From Collinsella tanakaei (GTDB lineage Bacteria; Actinomycetota; Coriobacteriia; Coriobacteriales; Coriobacteriaceae), in assembly GCF_016900375.1 (NCBI RefSeq), contig NZ_JACJKB010000017.1, positions 1-43,898 on the forward strand: a stretch of DNA of 43,898 nucleotides. The letters run 5' to 3'. Shown in pieces: positions 13,716 through 30,683 of this stretch. Numbering within the stretch: position 1 is the stretch's first letter; the number at the start of each line of letters is the position of its first letter. A model generated the notes under the pieces. That model had not been told where the DNA came from, did no database searches, and saw only the letters and a program-made list of their open reading frames with translations. The translations under genes and the position numbers were made by a program.

Positions 13716-15056
13716 ATGGCGGTTTCCAGCAAGGCGGTGCGCGCCGCGAGCAAGCTCGACTATCGAAGCGTGGCGCTCGTATCGCTCCCGTTCATGGGGA
13801 TGATCAGCTTCTGGCAGGTGTACGACGGTATCGTGCCCAAGATCCTCACCGACACCTTCGGCCTGTCGGATACGCTGACCGGTGCGGTGATGGCGCTCGA
13901 TAACGTGTTCGGCCTCTTCCTGCTGCCGATCTTCGGCGTGCTGTCGGACCGCTGCGGCAGCAGGCTCGGGCGGCGCACGCCTTTCATCCTGGTCGGATCG
14001 GCCATCGCGACGATCGCTGTGCCGCTCATCGCCGTGGCCGACCAGCTGGCAATCTTTCCGCTGCTTATCTGCATGATTTTGCTCGCGCTGTTCGCGATCT
14101 GTATGTACCGCACCATGACGGTGGCGATCATCGCCGACATCACGCCGCGTCCGCTGCGCACCAAGGCCGATTCCATCGAGAAGATCGTGGGCTATGCGGG
14201 CACGGGCGTCATGCTCGTGGCCATTGCGGTGATGGTCCCGAGCGTGGCGCACCCCAACTACATCCCGCTGTTCCTGCTGCAGGCCCTCTTCATTGCCGGC
14301 TCGGCCCTCATCTACGCGTGGAAGGTGCGCGAGCCCGCGCTCGTGCAGCGCATGCACGAGAAGAGCCTCGAGATGGGCATCGAGGAGTCGCAGATCGACG
14401 TCGACGATTCCCCCGAGGCGGGCGGCAAGCAGCGCATCACCGACCCCTCCGTGCGCTTCTCGGTCATCATGATCCTCGCCACGACGTTTTTCTATTACAT
14501 GAGCTATAACGCGATGACCACGAACATCTCGCGTTACGCCGACGAGTTCTACGGCCTTGCGGGCGGCAGCTACGCCATCATCAACATCGTGACGATCGTC
14601 GGCGCGCTGGCGAGCTACGTGCCTGTGGCCAACCTCTCGCTCAAGATCGGGCGCAAGAAGGTCGCCATCCTGTCGGCGCTCGTCATGACGGTGTGTCCGG
14701 TCGTGCTGTGGCTGGTCCCCGGCTTCAACCCCGCGTTCTACGCCATCTTCCTCGTCATGGGCGCAGCGCTCGGCGCGGTGGATATGTGCGTCTACACGAT
14801 GCTCGTGGAGAACTGCGACGCCAACAGCGTCGGCCGCTACTCGGGCTATTACTACACGCTGTCGATGGCCGGTCAGGTGGCGACGCCCATCCTCTCGGGT
14901 ATCGTCATGGATGTCGCGGCAAACCAGCTGTTCGCTTACATCGCCGCCATGGGCGCCTGCATGCTCGTGTGCGTGCTGCTCACCAAGCACGGCGACGCGA
15001 TCCTGATCGACGAGGTCGCACGCCGCGAGGAGGCCTTCGCCAAGACGGCCGATTAG
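13716..15056 (+). CDS. MFS transporter, GPH/SLC45-like
   Basis: A 446-residue inner-membrane transporter with about 12 predicted helices. The loop after helix 2 has the MFS motif A-like sequence LSDRCGSRLGRRTPFI, and a central cytoplasmic loop (MHEKSLEMGIEESQID) divides the two halves. The form resembles glycoside-cation symporter and SLC45-type sugar carriers, so a sugar or glycoside is possible, but its operon partner is a peptidase; the substrate is open. Start 13716 is preceded by GAGGGGAAGGGG. The open frame extends upstream into the peptidase gene but that is a shadow. No terminator was noted before the pcrA promoter. Confidence 0.87.
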   Translation: MAVSSKAVRAASKLDYRSVALVSLPFMGMISFWQVYDGIVPKILTDTFGLSDTLTGAVMALDNVFGLFLLPIFGVLSDRCGSRLGRRTPFILVGSAIATIAVPLIAVADQLAIFPLLICMILLALFAICMYRTMTVAIIADITPRPLRTKADSIEKIVGYAGTGVMLVAIAVMVPSVAHPNYIPLFLLQALFIAGSALIYAWKVREPALVQRMHEKSLEMGIEESQIDVDDSPEAGGKQRITDPSVRFSVIMILATTFFYYMSYNAMTTNISRYADEFYGLAGGSYAIINIVTIVGALASYVPVANLSLKIGRKKVAILSALVMTVCPVVLWLVPGFNPAFYAIFLVMGAALGAVDMCVYTMLVENCDANSVGRYSGYYYTLSMAGQVATPILSGIVMDVAANQLFAYIAAMGACMLVCVLLTKHGDAILIDEVARREEAFAKTAD

Positions 15057-15156
15057 CCGCGCGAACTCATTGCGGCTCTGGAGGGCGGGTCGCGGGTGCC
15101 GCTTGGAGTATCGGTGCCTGCTGCCCGCCCTCGGCATGCGTGTCTACGCGGGCGGC

Positions 15157-15162
15157 TATACT
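15157..15162 (+). promoter_or_regulatory. -10-like box for pcrA
   Basis: TATACT, 27-80 bp ahead of the three candidate pcrA start codons; it rules out the more upstream starts in the open frame. Confidence 0.4.
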
Positions 15163-15206
15163 TGTCTGGCTCAAAGAAGGTTCGTCCGATGTGCCGGAGG
15201 TCGTCG

Positions 15207-18020
15207 ATGCCGCAACAGCTACCATGGGAGAGGAACATGCAGGCCGCCCGTCAGGCAACGGGTGGGGTTCAGCAGACGATGCCGTTCGCTGCGCCCGCAG
15301 CGCCGTCTGCGCCGGAGTACGAGCAGGTTCCGCTCGATGTGTACGATGCGCCCGCGGCACCGGTGGCGCCGGCTGTGCCCAAGGTCGATATCGAGAGCCT
15401 GAACCCCGCGCAGAAAGAGGCGGTCCTCACCACCGAAGGCCCGCTGCTCGTGCTCGCGGGTGCGGGCTCGGGCAAGACCCGCGTGCTCACGTTCCGCATC
15501 GCGCATATGATCGCCGACCTCGGCGTGCGTCCGTGGCAGATCCTGGCCATCACCTTCACCAACAAGGCCGCGGCCGAGATGCGCGAGCGCCTGCAGGGCC
15601 TGCTGCCCGGCGGCACGCGCGGCATGTGGGTCTGCACCTTCCACGCCATGTGCGTGCGCATGCTGCGCGAGGACGCCGACCTGCTGGGCTACACAGGGCA
15701 GTTCACCATCTACGATGACGACGACTCGCGCCGCCTGGTGCGCGACATCATGTCGTCCATGGATATCGACCAGAAGCAGTACCCCATCAACATGATCCGC
15801 TCCAAGATCTCGGCGGCCAAAAACGCCATGATCGGCCCCGAGGAGATGGCGCAGCGCGCCGACGACCCGAGGACCGAGAAGGCTGCTCGCGTGTACGCGG
15901 AGCTGGAGCGCCGCCTGCGCGCGGCGAACGCCATGGACTTCGACGACCTGCTCGTGCGGGCGCTGGAGCTGCTGCGCACGCGCCCCGAGGTGCTCGATCG
16001 CTACCAGGAGCGCTTCCGCTACATCAGCGTCGACGAGTACCAGGACACCAACCATGTCCAGTACGAGATCGCGAACCTGCTTGCCGCCAAGTACCAGAAC
16101 CTCATGGTCGTCGGCGACGACGACCAGTCCATCTACAGCTGGCGCGGTGCGGATATCTCGAACATCCTCGATTTCGAGAAGGATTTCGCCTCGGCGAAGG
16201 TGGTCAAGCTCGAGCAGAACTACCGCTCGACCGGCCATATTCTGGCCGCGGCGAACGCCGTGGTGCGCCATAACTCCCAGCGCAAGGACAAGCGCCTGTT
16301 CACCGAGGCGGGCGATGGCGAGAAGATCCAGGCGTACCAGGCGAGCGACGAGCGCGACGAGGGCCGCTGGATCGCCGCCGAGATCGACAAGCTGCACGAT
16401 GGCGGCACGAGCTACGACGACATGGCGGTCTTCTACCGTACGAACGCCCAGTCGCGCATCCTCGAAGATATGTTCCTGCGCGCCGGCGTGCCGTACCGCA
16501 TCGTGGGAGGCACGCGCTTCTTCGACCGCGCTGAGATCCGCGACGTCATGGCCTACCTCAAGATGATTGTGAATCCGGCCGACGAGATGAGCGTCAAGCG
16601 CGTCATCAACACGCCGCGCCGCGGCATCGGTTCGACCTCCATCGCGAAGATCGAGCTGCTAGCGCAGGAGAACCGCTGCTCGTTCTTCCAGGCCTGCGAG
16701 CTCGCGTGCGCCGAGACGGGCATGTTCTCGGCCAAGGTGCGTAACGGCCTGTCCGATTTCGTGAACATCGTCCGCGAGGGGCGCCGCATGGACGGCGAGC
16801 TCAAGGACGTCGTCGACGCCATCGTGGAGAAGGCCGGGCTCGTGCAGGCCTTCCGCGCCGAGGGCACCATGGAGGCCGAGAGCCGCGCCGAGAACATCCA
16901 GGAATTCCTCGGCGTCGCGGCCGAGTTCGAGGAGACCCACGAGGACATCGAGGGCACGCTCGAGAGCCTGGCGGAGCTGCGCGCGGCGGGCATCGCGCCC
17001 GCGGAGGGCGACGATGCGGCGGAGGATGCCGCTTCCGGCGGCACCGCGCCGCTCGGCCGCGATGCCGAGCAGGGAAATCCGCTCGATGCGCTCGCGGCGC
17101 CGCTCACCTCGGCACAGGAGGCGCTGGCTCAGCTCATCTCGAGTAACGAGATGGCCGCGGCCCCTGCCGAGCCCGCGCATGTGGCGCAGATCGCCGATGA
17201 GATCGAGCGCACCTACGGCCCGCTTGCCTGCAAGGCGCTGCCGGCGCTCCTCGAGTGGCTCGCCCTGCGCTCCGACCTCGATGCGCTCTCCGGCCAGGCG
17301 AGCGCCATCACGATGATGACCGTGCACTCCGCCAAGGGCCTGGAGTTCCCGGTGGTGTTCGTCGCCGGCATGGAGGAGGGCATCTTCCCGCACGTTGCCG
17401 GCTTTGCCGCCGCCGACGATCCGGGCAAGCTCGAGGAGGAGCGTCGTTTGGCCTACGTGGCCATCACACGCGCCCGCAAGCGCCTCTTCCTGACGTATGC
17501 CGCAACGCGTCGTACCTACGGGTCGACGCAGGCCAATCCGCGCTCGCGCTTCGTGAACGAGATTCCCGAGGGCGATATCGAGTTCTCGGGCATCGGCTCT
17601 TCGGGTTTCGAGGGCACCGGCTGGGAGAAGCGCGGCGACCGCCGGGGTACCTTCGGGTCCGGCATGGGCTCCGACATGTACGGCGGCCGCGTCTTCGGAT
17701 CGTATACGCGCTCGACCGGTTCGGGCGGGGTCTCGCGCCATACGGGCATCAGCCCCGATGCGGGCCGTGCGCCCTCGACCTTCGGCAGCGGCCAGCCGCG
17801 CAAGCGCCCGAGTGCCGCTGAATCCACGGTGGTGCAGCGCCGCCCCGACGCCGTGAAGGCGGCCGAGGCCTTTGCTCCGGGCGACACCGTGAGCCACAAG
17901 ACGTTCGGCACGGGCAAGGTCATCTCGGCCGAGGGCGACATGATCGAGGTGCAGTTCGACAAGTCCGGTCAGACCAAGCGCCTCATGAAGGGATTCGCGC
18001 CCATCGTGAAGCTCAGCTAA
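15207..18020 (+). CDS. pcrA: ATP-dependent DNA helicase PcrA/UvrD
   Basis: Superfamily 1A 3'-5' helicase acting in nucleotide-excision repair and in clearing RNA polymerase or recombinase from DNA. Motifs in order: Q-motif LNPAQKEAV (65-73), Walker A AGAGSGKT (84-91), ITFTNKAAAEM, Walker B DEYQDTN, GDDDQSIYSWRGA, QNYRST, TVHSAKGLEFP and AYVAITRARKRL. The C-terminal Tudor-like RNA-polymerase-binding domain (GDTVSHKTFGTGKV) closes the protein. Odd points are a ~60-residue Ala/Pro-rich N-terminal extension and an Ala/Glu-rich insert in the 2B region (roughly 590-680). At 937 residues it is longer than the usual 720-780. Start 15207 has GGAGG at 6 nt; 15189 and 15237 are possible. Confidence 0.95.
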   Translation: MPQQLPWERNMQAARQATGGVQQTMPFAAPAAPSAPEYEQVPLDVYDAPAAPVAPAVPKVDIESLNPAQKEAVLTTEGPLLVLAGAGSGKTRVLTFRIAHMIADLGVRPWQILAITFTNKAAAEMRERLQGLLPGGTRGMWVCTFHAMCVRMLREDADLLGYTGQFTIYDDDDSRRLVRDIMSSMDIDQKQYPINMIRSKISAAKNAMIGPEEMAQRADDPRTEKAARVYAELERRLRAANAMDFDDLLVRALELLRTRPEVLDRYQERFRYISVDEYQDTNHVQYEIANLLAAKYQNLMVVGDDDQSIYSWRGADISNILDFEKDFASAKVVKLEQNYRSTGHILAAANAVVRHNSQRKDKRLFTEAGDGEKIQAYQASDERDEGRWIAAEIDKLHDGGTSYDDMAVFYRTNAQSRILEDMFLRAGVPYRIVGGTRFFDRAEIRDVMAYLKMIVNPADEMSVKRVINTPRRGIGSTSIAKIELLAQENRCSFFQACELACAETGMFSAKVRNGLSDFVNIVREGRRMDGELKDVVDAIVEKAGLVQAFRAEGTMEAESRAENIQEFLGVAAEFEETHEDIEGTLESLAELRAAGIAPAEGDDAAEDAASGGTAPLGRDAEQGNPLDALAAPLTSAQEALAQLISSNEMAAAPAEPAHVAQIADEIERTYGPLACKALPALLEWLALRSDLDALSGQASAITMMTVHSAKGLEFPVVFVAGMEEGIFPHVAGFAAADDPGKLEEERRLAYVAITRARKRLFLTYAATRRTYGSTQANPRSRFVNEIPEGDIEFSGIGSSGFEGTGWEKRGDRRGTFGSGMGSDMYGGRVFGSYTRSTGSGGVSRHTGISPDAGRAPSTFGSGQPRKRPSAAESTVVQRRPDAVKAAEAFAPGDTVSHKTFGTGKVISAEGDMIEVQFDKSGQTKRLMKGFAPIVKLS

Positions 18021-27794: not shown

Positions 27795-27819
27795 CAACAC
27801 GTCCTCTCTCCCTCCTACG

Positions 27820-27854
27820 CGCCCCCGCCGATGCCCCGGTGGGGGCGTTTTTTT
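27820..27854 (+). terminator. Strong terminator after galKT
   Basis: CGCCCCCGCC (27820-27829) pairs with GGTGGGGGCG (27838-27847) with one G-T pair, then seven T residues. It isolates the following RiPP genes from gal readthrough. Confidence 0.9.
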
Positions 27855-27930: not shown

Positions 27931-27956
27931 TAGCTTGGATGTGTCGGGCAGGGAGG
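27931..27956 (+). promoter_or_regulatory. Possible RiPP promoter and ribosome site
   Basis: TAGCTT (27931-27936) resembles the TAGCAT box at 12103, and GGGAGG (27951-27956) lies 6 nt before the maturase start. No clear -35. Confidence 0.25.
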
Positions 27957-27962
27957 TCCACC

Positions 27963-29402
27963 ATGCGCTATGTGCTCAGCGAACAGTATCTTTTGCGTGG
28001 CTGGGACCGTCTGCCTTGGGCGGTCGTGCGCCGTCCTGAGAACACGGTGCGCTTCATCGACGCGCCCATGTTCCGCGTGCTCGAGCTGAGCGACGGCACC
28101 GTCGATTTCGACCTTCCCCTCATTTCCGACCAGATGCGGGATGTCGCCGCCCGACTCGAGCGCGAGGGCGTGCTGCGCGCCCTCGCCGACGGGGAGCGTG
28201 CCGAACTCACCGATGACCAGCGCTATGTGCGCTATCCCAACCGCTTCATCAAGACGGTTCACTGGTCCATCACGGGCCGCTGCAACTATCGGTGCCGTCA
28301 TTGCTTTATGGATGCGCCGGATGCAAGGCTCGGCGAGCTCGACCATGACACGATGATGGATATCGCCCGCCAGATCGTTGAGGCGGGCATCCTGCACGTG
28401 AACCTCACCGGCGGTGAGCCGTTGGTGCGCCCCGACTTCCTAGAGATCGTGGATTACCTCATCGCGCACCACGTGGTTATCGAGCAGATCTACTCCAATG
28501 GGCGCTTGGTGACGCGCGAGCTGCTTGAAAAGCTCGATGAGCGGGGCACCCATCCCGAGTTCAACATGAGTTTTGACGGTACCGAGGGTTGGCACGACTG
28601 GCTTCGCGGTGTCGACGGTGCGACCGACGACATCTTGCGCGCCTTCGACCTTTGCCGTGCGATGGGCTTCCCCACGGGCGCAGAGATATGCCTGCACAGG
28701 GGCAACCTCCATACCCTGCGCGACAGCGTGAACCTGCTCGCCGAGCATGGTTGCCTTTCGCTCAAGACCAACCCGGTCTCCCCGACGGAGGCCTGGAAGA
28801 GAAGCGGCTCGTCCGACCTCACGCTTTCCATCGAGGAGGCCGCTGAGGCCTACCTCACCTACATCCCGCGCTACTTCGAAGACGGCATGCCGCTTTCGAT
28901 CATGCTCGGTGGCATGTTCTCGTGCGAGAAGGGCAGCACCGACTGGTTCGTTCCTCGCATGCACGTTGCCACCTGCGATGCGGGGGAGAAGCCCGATGAG
29001 GCGGTTATGCAGGACTGCTTGGATTCCTGCATATGCGGCCATGCGCGGGTGACGCTCTACATATCCCCCGAAGGGCGCATGCTCCCATGCATGCCGCTCT
29101 CGGAGCTTCCCGTTCAGGACGACTATCCGGCAGTTCAGGATTTCGGCCTTGCTCGGGGGCTTACCGATTCTTCCTATCTCAGGCTCGTCACCACGACGGT
29201 AGGCGAGTACCTTGCGCGCAATCCGGAGTGCGCGGCATGTGAGTATCGCTTCGCATGCGGGGGAGGCTGCCGCGCTGGGGCGATTCGCGCGGATCCCGAC
29301 AACATCATGGGTCCCGATCGTGCGATGTGCGCGCTGTACCGGGGAGGCTACTACAGGCGGGTTCGCGAGGTGGCGGAAGCTGCCGCGAAGATGAACGGAT
29401 GA
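27963..29402 (+). CDS. Radical SAM/SPASM peptide maturase of a Nif11-type RiPP
   Basis: A 479-residue radical SAM enzyme expected to modify the peptide encoded next door. Residues 1-95 form a small alpha/beta region that could be a PqqD-like leader-recognition element (FIDAPMFRVLELSDGTVDFDLPLISDQM). The radical SAM cluster is C107-x3-C111-x2-C114 in GRCNYRCRHCF, followed by LTGGEPLVRPDF. The C-terminal SPASM domain shows C-x12-G-x4-C (CGHARVTLYISPEGRMLPC), then C423, C426, C432, C436 and C456 in the CxxCx5CxxxC...C form, so two auxiliary Fe-S clusters are likely. Start 27963 follows GGGAGG. SPASM peptide enzymes make thioether, C-C or epimer changes or excise tyramine; which applies here cannot be read from sequence. 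The precursor starts 11 bp after its stop. Confidence 0.9.
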   Translation: MRYVLSEQYLLRGWDRLPWAVVRRPENTVRFIDAPMFRVLELSDGTVDFDLPLISDQMRDVAARLEREGVLRALADGERAELTDDQRYVRYPNRFIKTVHWSITGRCNYRCRHCFMDAPDARLGELDHDTMMDIARQIVEAGILHVNLTGGEPLVRPDFLEIVDYLIAHHVVIEQIYSNGRLVTRELLEKLDERGTHPEFNMSFDGTEGWHDWLRGVDGATDDILRAFDLCRAMGFPTGAEICLHRGNLHTLRDSVNLLAEHGCLSLKTNPVSPTEAWKRSGSSDLTLSIEEAAEAYLTYIPRYFEDGMPLSIMLGGMFSCEKGSTDWFVPRMHVATCDAGEKPDEAVMQDCLDSCICGHARVTLYISPEGRMLPCMPLSELPVQDDYPAVQDFGLARGLTDSSYLRLVTTTVGEYLARNPECAACEYRFACGGGCRAGAIRADPDNIMGPDRAMCALYRGGYYRRVREVAEAAAKMNG

Positions 29403-29413
29403 AGGAGGCCATT

Positions 29414-29899
29414 ATGAACGAGAGCCTGAAAGCGTTTCTCAGCCGTGCAGGCGAGGATGATGAGCTGAAGAAGCGGATCGGCGAGGCGATGGACAAAGAC
29501 GTCGAGACGAGCAGCGAGGCGGTTGCCGCGCTTGCCCGGGAAGCGGGTTTCGACATGAGCGCCGAAGACGTGCGCGAGCTGTGCCGCGGGGGCAGAGAAG
29601 AGATTGACGAGGAGGAGCTCGCCCAGGTTGTCGGTGGCGGCAGCAGCGGCACGGGTAAGGTGGTCTACAAGGATTACTGCTGGTGCGTATTCGAAGGCGA
29701 GGGTGAATTCAGGGGCAACAGCTACAAGCACTGCACATGCAGTTGGGACGGCACCGGTGAGACGATGGGCATCCACCGTTTGGTTCCGGATGGGCGCGGG
29801 AGCGGAGAGGTCCATTGCGACTGCTATGTGTACGGTTCGGGCGACGCGGTGGGAGGCGTCGATCTGTCCTGCGTAAACCTCGCGAATTCGCATCGATAG
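29414..29899 (+). CDS. Nif11-leader RiPP precursor with three CxC modules
   Basis: A 161-residue precursor. The leader (1-76) is Nif11-type: SLKAFLSRAGEDDELKKRI, then AVAALAREAGFDMSAEDVREL, an acidic stretch and the double-glycine end LAQVVGGG at 70-76. The core (77-161) has seven cysteines: C89/C91 (YCWCVF), C107/C109 (HCTCSW), C135/C137 (HCDCYVY) and C153. The pattern [YH]CxC followed by an aromatic residue 2-3 positions on recurs three times, separated by Gly/Asp/Glu-rich spacers. A single VYG tripeptide (139-141) also occurs. Start 29414 has AAGGAGG at 5 nt; an in-frame ATG at 29399 overlaps the maturase. The core is long for a RiPP, so it may yield a multi-ring peptide. No peptidase-containing transporter for double-glycine cleavage is encoded nearby. 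Confidence 0.88.
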   Translation: MNESLKAFLSRAGEDDELKKRIGEAMDKDVETSSEAVAALAREAGFDMSAEDVRELCRGGREEIDEEELAQVVGGGSSGTGKVVYKDYCWCVFEGEGEFRGNSYKHCTCSWDGTGETMGIHRLVPDGRGSGEVHCDCYVYGSGDAVGGVDLSCVNLANSHR

Positions 29900-29964
29900 C
29901 GACAAGTTGGGTCCGGGTACAATCTTGTCGTATCGACAAGAAGGGGCCAGGTTCAAACTTGTTG
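29900..29964. repeat. Left pair of ~31-bp CGACAAG/CTTGTCG repeats
   Basis: 29900-29930 starts CGACAAG and ends CTTGTCG, an inverted-repeat-bounded unit with a diverged middle. 29934-29964 (CGACAAGAAGGGGCCAGG then TTCAAACTTGTTGC) is a second unit. The latter matches 30622-30652 in direct orientation at all but two or three positions. The first unit starts one base after the RiPP precursor stop codon. Confidence 0.85.
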
Positions 29965-30663
29965 CTGGAAGTATGCCTCGACACCAACTGGTATGCGGTG
30001 CTGCGTGCGGCGCGCGCTGAGGGCTGTCCCGTAGAGGATATCGAGGTCTTTGAAGATTGCTTGACCTTCGGTGATATCGCCGATCTTTCAGCGGAGGCCC
30101 GCATGGACCAACTCGGACGATGGGGTATCCCGGTTGCCGATGGGTTCCAGAAGCACCAACAGCGTTTTTACGGGTGCGTGCCTCAGGCATGCACGGTACG
30201 TGTCTGGACGGGCCGTCTCCCGCATCAGGTCATTGCGCTCGCGCTCGTCTGCGCTCTGGCGCAGACGAGCGCATCCGTGGTATGCGTCCGGGGTGCAGTG
30301 GGGGAGTGGCTGCTTGATAATCGACGGCTTCCCGAACGATTCGAAGCGTTTGCTCGCGACGCTTCGCCCATAGACGGCGTTGACCGTAAGCGCCAGGTGA
30401 TGATCTGGGAGCAGCTTGTTCAAGAAGATGCCGAACTCAGAATCGCTCCGGGCGGCCAGCCATGCAGCGCGAAGGTCGACGTGTTCGACAACATCATTCG
30501 GCAGGAGCTCGCGCGAGGCGGATATCGCGACCCCGAGCGTCGAGCATACGAAATCGCATGCGCATGCATAGAGGCGGCAGGCGGTCTGCTTGCGCCCGAG
30601 TTCTTTGCCTGGCGCATACATGACAAGAAGGGGCCGGGTTCAAACTTGTCGCGACAAGTTTGA
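29962..30663 (+). CDS. DUF1835/DUF3658-like protein bounded by repeats
   Basis: A 233-residue protein of unknown function. The N-terminal part (LEVCLDTNWYAVLRAA, then IEVFEDCLTFGDI and VRVWTGRLPHQVIALALVCAL) resembles DUF1835; the C-terminal part (KRQVMIWEQLVQEDAELRI to EIACACIEAAGGLLAPEFFAWRIH) resembles DUF3658, and the two domains commonly occur together. No in-frame ATG exists near the expected N-terminus. The likely start is TTG at 29962 (or 29959), both inside the left repeat, so the repeat would supply the start and possibly the AAGGGG ribosome site. At the 3' end the frame runs into the right repeat, adding the tail DKKGPGSNLSRQV. It may be a captured, possibly decaying gene. A role with the RiPP genes is not implied by sequence. 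GC looks a little lower than flanking genes. Confidence 0.55.
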   Translation: MLEVCLDTNWYAVLRAARAEGCPVEDIEVFEDCLTFGDIADLSAEARMDQLGRWGIPVADGFQKHQQRFYGCVPQACTVRVWTGRLPHQVIALALVCALAQTSASVVCVRGAVGEWLLDNRRLPERFEAFARDASPIDGVDRKRQVMIWEQLVQEDAELRIAPGGQPCSAKVDVFDNIIRQELARGGYRDPERRAYEIACACIEAAGGLLAPEFFAWRIHDKKGPGSNLSRQV

Positions 30664-30677
30664 ACCCGGCCCCATTT
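30622..30677. repeat. Right repeat pair forming a perfect 21-bp hairpin
   Basis: 30622-30652 is a direct copy of the left repeat (29935-29964), and 30651-30673 is an inverted copy. Together 30630-30650 and 30653-30673 are exact reverse complements with a 2-nt GC loop, followed by ATTTTG on the plus strand and CTTCTTG on the minus strand. It probably also stops transcription from both the left gene and the alpha-galactosidase gene, which ends at 30684. Confidence 0.9.
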
Positions 30678-30683
30678 TGCCGG

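Follow-up and report, generated by a model that had tools for sequence, protein, structure and literature searches.

The stretch of DNA analyzed here, hereafter referred to as the window, covers 43,898 nucleotides of a Collinsella tanakaei contig (NZ_JACJKB010000017.1). On its forward strand, we observed a two-gene RiPP locus that is separated from the upstream galactose genes by an intrinsic-terminator-like hairpin after galT (27819 to 27848), made of 12 pairs followed by a T-run. The first gene (27963 to 29402), preceded by the Shine-Dalgarno-like AGGGAGGT that can be read in the sequence at 27950 to 27957, encodes a 479-residue radical SAM/SPASM peptide maturase with a predicted RRE-like domain, a radical SAM core and a seven-cysteine SPASM domain. 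An AAGGAGG ribosome-binding site, likewise read in the sequence at 29402 to 29408, overlaps the maturase stop codon and precedes the precursor ORF, which begins 11 bp past that stop codon (ATG at 29414, stop codon ending at 29899) and encodes 161 residues. These comprise a Nif11 leader (residues 1 to 76; 29414 to 29641), which ends in EELAQVVGGG with a double-Gly site, and an 85-residue core peptide (29642 to 29896) with seven cysteines. The leader was recognized above cut-off by two curated models, TIGR03798 (46.4 bits versus a cut-off of 32.3, residues 3 to 75) and PF07862 (39.5 bits versus 23.8). The initial annotation had proposed a compact Nif11/SPASM RiPP locus with a leader 11 bp downstream of the enzyme and an 85-residue core holding seven cysteines, and this layout was borne out throughout.

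Three modules were apparent in the core after alignment with 10 other precursors: CWCVFEGEG (residues 89 to 97; 29678 to 29704), CTCSWDGTG (residues 107 to 115; 29732 to 29758) and CDCYVYGSG (residues 135 to 143; 29816 to 29842). The remaining cysteine, Cys153 (29870 to 29872), lies in CVNLA, has Ala and not Gly at +4 and was without counterpart in the other aligned precursors. Three CxC motifs were reached in 1,210 of 200,000 full shuffles of the window core, and three CxCxxxGxG motifs in 4 of 200,000 shuffles in which the Cys positions were fixed. A structure model of the precursor, which is uninformative for the unmodified core, gave a core pLDDT below 50 and no hairpins.

The CX3CX2C motif of the maturase consists of C107, C111 and C114, and its SPASM cysteines are C358, C376, C423, C426, C432, C436 and C456. 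All ten cluster cysteines were invariant in alignments of 11 and 21 sequences, the window included, the larger one being made of the window and 20 homologues at 34 to 53% identity. This confirmed the cysteine pattern previously described for the enzyme. The maturase matched PF04055, and no NCBIfam model scored above cut-off among the best 25 of 78, in agreement with the earlier statement that no named class with this exact repeat was known. The sactisynthase models StsB and AlbA stayed below cut-off (76.6 of 625 bits and 49.6 of 850 bits), and TIGR04103 (nif11-class radical SAM maturase 3, which we take to be the family holding PlpX) was far under its own (70.7 of 725 bits). The best sequence relatives with solved structures were PqqE (64 bits) and SkfB (40.8 bits). 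As judged from these comparisons, the maturase is not near any characterized sactisynthase in sequence. Its structure model had a mean pLDDT of 92.4 and matched the folds of SkfB (Z 27.4, model residues 7 to 450) and SuiB (Z 26.4, residues about 4 to 457), both including the N-terminal domain, and of CteB (Z 24.9, residues 93 to 476). Winged-helix-like elements were predicted at residues 9 to 74, and the N-terminus (about residues 1 to 90) is predicted to be an RRE-like domain, of a kind that many but not all SPASM peptide maturases have. SkfB, CteB and SuiB resemble the predicted maturase in having a radical SAM plus SPASM/twitch fold with an RRE, but they are only 14 to 22% identical to it in structural alignment and act on other substrates. 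SuiB is not a thioether former. The fold matches do not identify the maturase reaction, and SuiB fits about as well as SkfB.

In the alignment of 11 window-type precursors, CxCxxxGxG was found up to three times in register. The precursor of G349 carries CTCYTYGSG, CECYIYGEG and CTCFHVGVG, that of L091 carries CICGIGGGG, CVCVLGGGG and CVCVVAGGG, and that of L053 carries CFCAVAGGG, CACVVGGWG and CHCPIGGYG; L095 has two precursors with three modules each, and L052, L056 and L064 have fewer modules. Gly occupied +6 of the CxC motif in 28 of 28 cases and +8 in 27 of 28, and CxCxxxGxG was observed 27 times versus a mean of 1.6 and a maximum of 8 in 20,000 shuffles with fixed cysteines. This set, like the 38-core set described below, was partly picked for carrying the module and, since the sequences are related, p-values are descriptive only. 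The module had initially been described as a [Y/H]CxC-aromatic repeat. This description did not hold as a conserved pattern: Y or H precedes CxC in 5 of 27 modules, and F, W or Y is found at +3 to +5 in 10 of 27, which include all six modules of the window and its closest relative, L051, and just 4 of the 21 others. Only the two cysteines and Gly6 are invariant within the modules of the window-type cores, and, according to the alignment, the conserved unit is CxCxxxG(xG). The view that each CxC marks one module of a multi-module product was supported, and the CxC modules were conserved in the homologous window-type precursors, where a lack of conservation was to have counted against it. When all 87 nonredundant Nif11 cores near 80 enzyme ORFs were considered, which were not selected for the module and, being cut automatically, may include some spurious ORFs, 25 of 36 CxC motifs were CxCxxxGxG. 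Ten of these 87 cores are without Cys, and other enzyme clades show different Cys patterns. No general enrichment of Gly at +4 was found in those nearby cores that lack CxCxxxG (22 of 211).

A profile of the whole precursor, which includes the module and was applied with at most 10 candidates scored per genome, matched 18 of 396 genomes of the class at E 1e-9 or better. Twenty matched regions were fetched, most of them from one genus taken as Atopobiaceae, with modules such as CACVVIGAVKGCGCFIGGGGK. The 23 nonredundant Atopobiaceae-type cores fetched had Gly at +6 in 41 of 41 CxC motifs and at +8 in 7 of 41. We then combined cores into a 38-core set, of which 24 (the "B" cores) comprise 22 chosen by eye from 35 ORFs, leaving out near-duplicates and one Cys-free core (L262), plus L087 and L056. 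In this set, Gly was at +6 in 70 of 70 CxC motifs, versus a shuffle mean of 18.4 and a maximum of 31 (5,000 shuffles, Cys fixed). Lone cysteines were followed by Gly at +4 in 34 of 52 cases, versus 11.8 expected and a maximum of 25 in 5,000 shuffles; in window-type cores this was so for 4 of 14, and Cys153 of the window is not among them. Thus, C-x3-G is the basic unit, and a Cys two residues earlier is the common elaboration of it. As far as these cores go, Gly8 is a mark of the window's type.

The system is real and conserved, and it probably represents a new, sactipeptide-like subfamily among the Nif11 RiPPs. As the best explanation, to which we give about an even chance, we propose a sactipeptide-like RiPP with a leader-binding maturase, Cys-Gly alpha-thioethers and NHLP export. 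We infer leader binding, the bond itself, the pairing of residues and the use of the exporter as follows. The RRE-like N-terminal domain of the maturase would bind the Nif11 leader, and in every module the enzyme would abstract the alpha-hydrogen from the conserved Gly6 and join the sulfur of Cys2 to the Gly6 alpha-carbon, closing a C-x3-G ring. A second link of this kind, between Cys0 and Gly8, would probably be formed in the window's clade; the resulting mini-hairpin, nested and held by two staples, would occur three times per peptide, and up to six links per peptide would amount to -12 Da. Cleavage after GG and secretion of the core would then fall to an NHLP exporter that has a C39 peptidase and whose genes lie elsewhere in the genome. 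At a guess, the product could be a bacteriocin-like or signaling peptide.

Glycine has an alpha-carbon only, so that no epimerization is possible and no atom is available for a beta or gamma link. As Gly lacks a side-chain carbon, any thioether formed at Gly6 must be an alpha-thioether, i.e., a sactionine. The initial annotation had suggested one modification site per module, possibly a thioether or Cys-aromatic link; the aromatic partner was not conserved, and a Cys-Gly alpha-thioether fits the Gly6 counts better. With respect to the pairing, positions 0, 2, 6 and 8 have the register of a nested hairpin (0+8 = 2+6), and subtilosin A and thurincin H reportedly keep such a constant-sum register. 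Among C-x3-G units of window-type cores, 27 had both Cys0 and Gly8, 1 had Cys0 only, none had Gly8 only and 5 had neither, and these counts favor Cys2-Gly6 plus Cys0-Gly8 over Cys0-Gly6 plus Cys2-Gly8. In wider sets, Cys0 and Gly8 covaried less cleanly ([[27,6],[2,15]] and [[27,7],[7,28]]). A universal Cys0-Gly8 pairing was not upheld, since the Atopobiaceae-type units showed no association ([[7,34],[4,15]]). The outer link is thus uncertain, because Gly8 is not universal: in the Atopobiaceae-type part of the 38-core set, it was present in 8 of 44 CxC motifs, and Gly10 was commoner (22 of 44).

The alternative that survives best keeps the same architecture and assumes another radical chemistry at the Cys/Gly module, such as cleavage at Gly or its oxidation, a Cys-to-backbone change, or linkage of Cys to the hydrophobic +3/+4 residues; Gly would then act only as a turn or recognition residue. 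We consider it rather unlikely. Positions +3 and +4 are mostly hydrophobic, with Ala and Pro counted (24 of 28 and 21 of 28), and the similar fold matches of SuiB and SkfB are in line with it. Moreover, enzymes 47 to 52% identical to the maturase were found beside Cys-free Nif11 cores (L054 and L092, the contig of the latter ending shortly after the enzyme) or with no Nif11 gene found nearby (L093), and the enzyme family may thus perform other chemistry. However, the residues at +3/+4 vary widely, and the only invariants are Gly6 and the two cysteines. Another possibility is that the cysteines of CxC are left free to bind metal or form disulfides, the enzyme having another target. As a metal or redox motif CxC is common, but the conservation of Gly6, the adjacent maturase, the double-Gly leader and the bacteriocin-type exporter in the genome make this reading improbable. 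About equally improbable are thioethers to beta or gamma carbons, as in ranthipeptides: the C-x3-G spacing equals the C-x3-D spacing of freyrasin-type peptides, but Gly, the invariant candidate acceptor, is without a beta carbon, and Asp, Asn or Thr has no conserved position within the module of window-type cores. CteB, which is among the fold matches, is a ranthipeptide synthase (PMC11002830). A Cys-aromatic crosslink in each module, be it S-C or C-C, as the initial annotation had it, would suit the window and L051, where every module has an aromatic residue at +3 to +5, but the scarcity of such residues elsewhere makes it very improbable. Least probable of all is excision by a splicease-like enzyme of the PlpX type, which acts at Xaa-Tyr-Gly on Nif11/NHLP-type precursors (PMC11002830): the PlpX pathway and TIGR04103 likewise involve a radical SAM enzyme and such precursors, and some modules read VYG, TYG or IYG, but Tyr occupies +5 in only 4 of 28 modules, X-Tyr-Gly is not conserved in the core, the maturase does not approach the TIGR04103 cut-off, and PlpX was shown, in the available text of that article, with a separate RRE protein, PlpY, whereas the RRE-like domain is fused here.

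The sactipeptide-like reading can be compared with known systems. Ruminococcin C is similar in that it comes from a gut anaerobe and a radical SAM maturase and in that its CxC cysteines act as donors in a hairpin closed by two nested links (PMC8172795). It has two hairpins per peptide, and in ruminococcin C2 the nested links are Cys22-Asn35 and Cys24-Glu31; the C2 acceptors are Asn, Glu and Arg in much larger rings, whereas Gly is proposed here (available text of PMC8172795). Streptosactin, made by the SPASM enzyme GggB, has short rings and a Gly acceptor (Cys31-Gly34), but its spacing is C-x2-G/S, its links are unnested, its product has 14 residues, and no Nif11 leader is mentioned in the accessible part of the source (PMC8172795). 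Gly is included among the sactionine acceptors listed in a review, which gives 8 to 29 residues for known sactipeptide leaders, compared to 76 with a Nif11 domain in the window precursor (PMC8326336, as far as available). The N11P precursors (TIGR03798) share the leader, the double-Gly site and the exporter type (TIGR03796/TIGR03797), but the partners named for them are thiazole/oxazole and lanthionine enzymes, and here the partner is a radical SAM/SPASM enzyme (available text of PMC2887384). No description of the CxCxxxG module was found in the accessible literature on Nif11 with radical SAM, sactipeptide or ranthipeptide and on sactipeptides in Collinsella.

Export was investigated in the same genomes. 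The NHLP exporter type was described for Nif11 precursors by Haft and colleagues (PMC2887384, in the text available). A single Peptidase_C39 match was found in the window's genome. It belongs to a complete NHLP pair encoded on a different contig (G000:C35), unlinked to the locus, and this pair scored above both cut-offs (TIGR03796, 939.6 bits versus 853.3; TIGR03797, 716 bits versus 709.4). We infer that the window peptide uses this type of exporter. In L091, a TIGR03796 plus TIGR03797 pair above cut-off adjoins the locus, and in G218 and G123 a TIGR03796 protein above cut-off is encoded on the locus contig, at most 5 kb away. The second transporter beside L053 (G218) reached 670.1 bits with TIGR03797 versus a cut-off of 709.4, and in L095 the TIGR03796 protein adjoins another ABC transporter. 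Overall, TIGR03796 was above cut-off in 6 of 8 locus-bearing genomes tested (failing in G193 and G350) and in 1 of 6 locus-free congeners. Upstream of the NHLP exporter of the window's genome, a 215-residue protein is encoded (L185, 2736 to 3383) whose C-terminus, VRLDDKELDGVVGGISGIAVRPNPGMR, is like the end of a double-Gly leader.

An enzyme match at E 1e-30 or better was found in 2 of 43 genomes of the genus, the window's own included; the 22 further genomes covered at family level had none. Across the class, 29 of 396 genomes had a match, and the closest full-length enzyme (G349, 74% identical) belongs to another family in the same order. A scan of named genomes yielded at least 80 loci, with at least 21 clear homologues (L091 to L111, E 2e-59 or better), of which at least L094 and L107 are on contigs already in the set. 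Among the matches listed, the hosts of these homologues included Lachnospiraceae, Pseudobutyrivibrio, Erysipelotrichaceae, Faecalibacterium and Synergistaceae MAGs. No enzyme relatives were found on viral contigs by pattern scan, on plasmids at E 1e-20 or on phages at E 1e-10. In an enzyme tree that left out 3 of 80 rows shorter than 280 residues, the truncated G029 enzyme among them, the window, L051, L052 and L091 formed one clade (100/97). A single origin of the CxCxxxGxG label was not found on this tree, as the 11 labeled rows need 6 changes; shuffled labels needed 10.5 changes on average, and 0 of 500 shuffles were as low as 6. L059/L060 have single-Cys units only. The Cys-free Nif11-type precursor of L054 (1775 to 2266), beside the 47% identical enzyme, has a collagen-like, Gly-rich core (GAVGEVGATGAVGPVGEVGPLGPR).

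In genomes of one Atopobiaceae-type genus (G142, G350, G298 and G216; L251 to L260 and L265 to L270), Nif11 precursors with CxCxxxG are greatly expanded, and most of them are on contigs that have no enzyme match. G142 has ten such precursors outside contig C7, five of them in L251 and the others in L256, L257, L258, L267 and L056, and for 9 of the 10 the contig, which is a MAG contig, has no match to the enzyme. G350 and G298 have nine each. The Atopobiaceae-type expansions are possibly a natural library. We tentatively propose, with less than even confidence, an unnamed Gly-acceptor sactipeptide family of gut Actinomycetota and Bacillota that would place repeatable C-x3-G or CxC-x3-G(-x-G) staples on Nif11-led peptides; in some Atopobiaceae, a few enzymes may serve at least nine precursors encoded elsewhere, as a combinatorial library like the prochlorosins, and the doubly stapled nine-residue hairpin would be a very small nested sactipeptide unit. 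If this is true, C-x3-G would be a compact, sequence-readable rule for radical SAM stapling at glycine, the precursors would make up a peptide library from gut bacteria as well as a substrate family suited to coexpression, and the NHLP/Nif11 export system would be tied to radical SAM thioether chemistry. In a platform study, none of the ranthipeptide or sactipeptide clusters tested yielded modified peptides (PMC9576775).

In the genus, 30 galT sites were fetched. The RiPP locus occupies the galT slot in two of them, the window and the congener G029, where it is found at the same galT/alpha-galactosidase site with reversed gene order. In five sites (L193 to L197), galT and the alpha-galactosidase gene are near neighbors and the locus is absent; for 22 of the 30, the 1.5 kb fetched contained no alpha-galactosidase. 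In G036 (L198), a gene homologous to the window's downstream ORF stands in the slot without the RiPP pair. The galT/alpha-galactosidase site thus takes cargo, since it is without the locus in five congeners and holds only this homologue in a sixth. The upstream galactose genes were rejected as part of the system, given the galT sites without the locus and the terminator-like hairpin before the RiPP pair, and so was the downstream ORF, whose homologue stands alone in the G036 slot. The maturase of G029 (L069, 4992 to 5816) is without residues 186 to 417, in frame, next to an intact three-module precursor, and is either a dead gene or an assembly artifact. G029 has a further CxCxxxG precursor on contig C5 (L264).

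The window's downstream ORF (29815 to 30663, forward strand, start codon uncertain) encodes DUF1835 and DUF3658 domains, and its G036 homologue, which is 69% identical, represents a second cargo gene for the same slot. REP-like palindromes of the GACAAGAAGGGGCCGGGTTCAAACTTGTC type flank this ORF at 29899 to 29963 and 30622 to 30682; the palindrome had 43 copies in the genome at up to 3 mismatches and the reversed control had 0. The window's genome also has a second radical SAM-Nif11 locus (L083/L016, G000:C87, about 13,800 to 17,100), with an enzyme that is 33% identical, two Nif11 precursors whose cysteines follow a different pattern, and a third short ORF with a double-Gly site.
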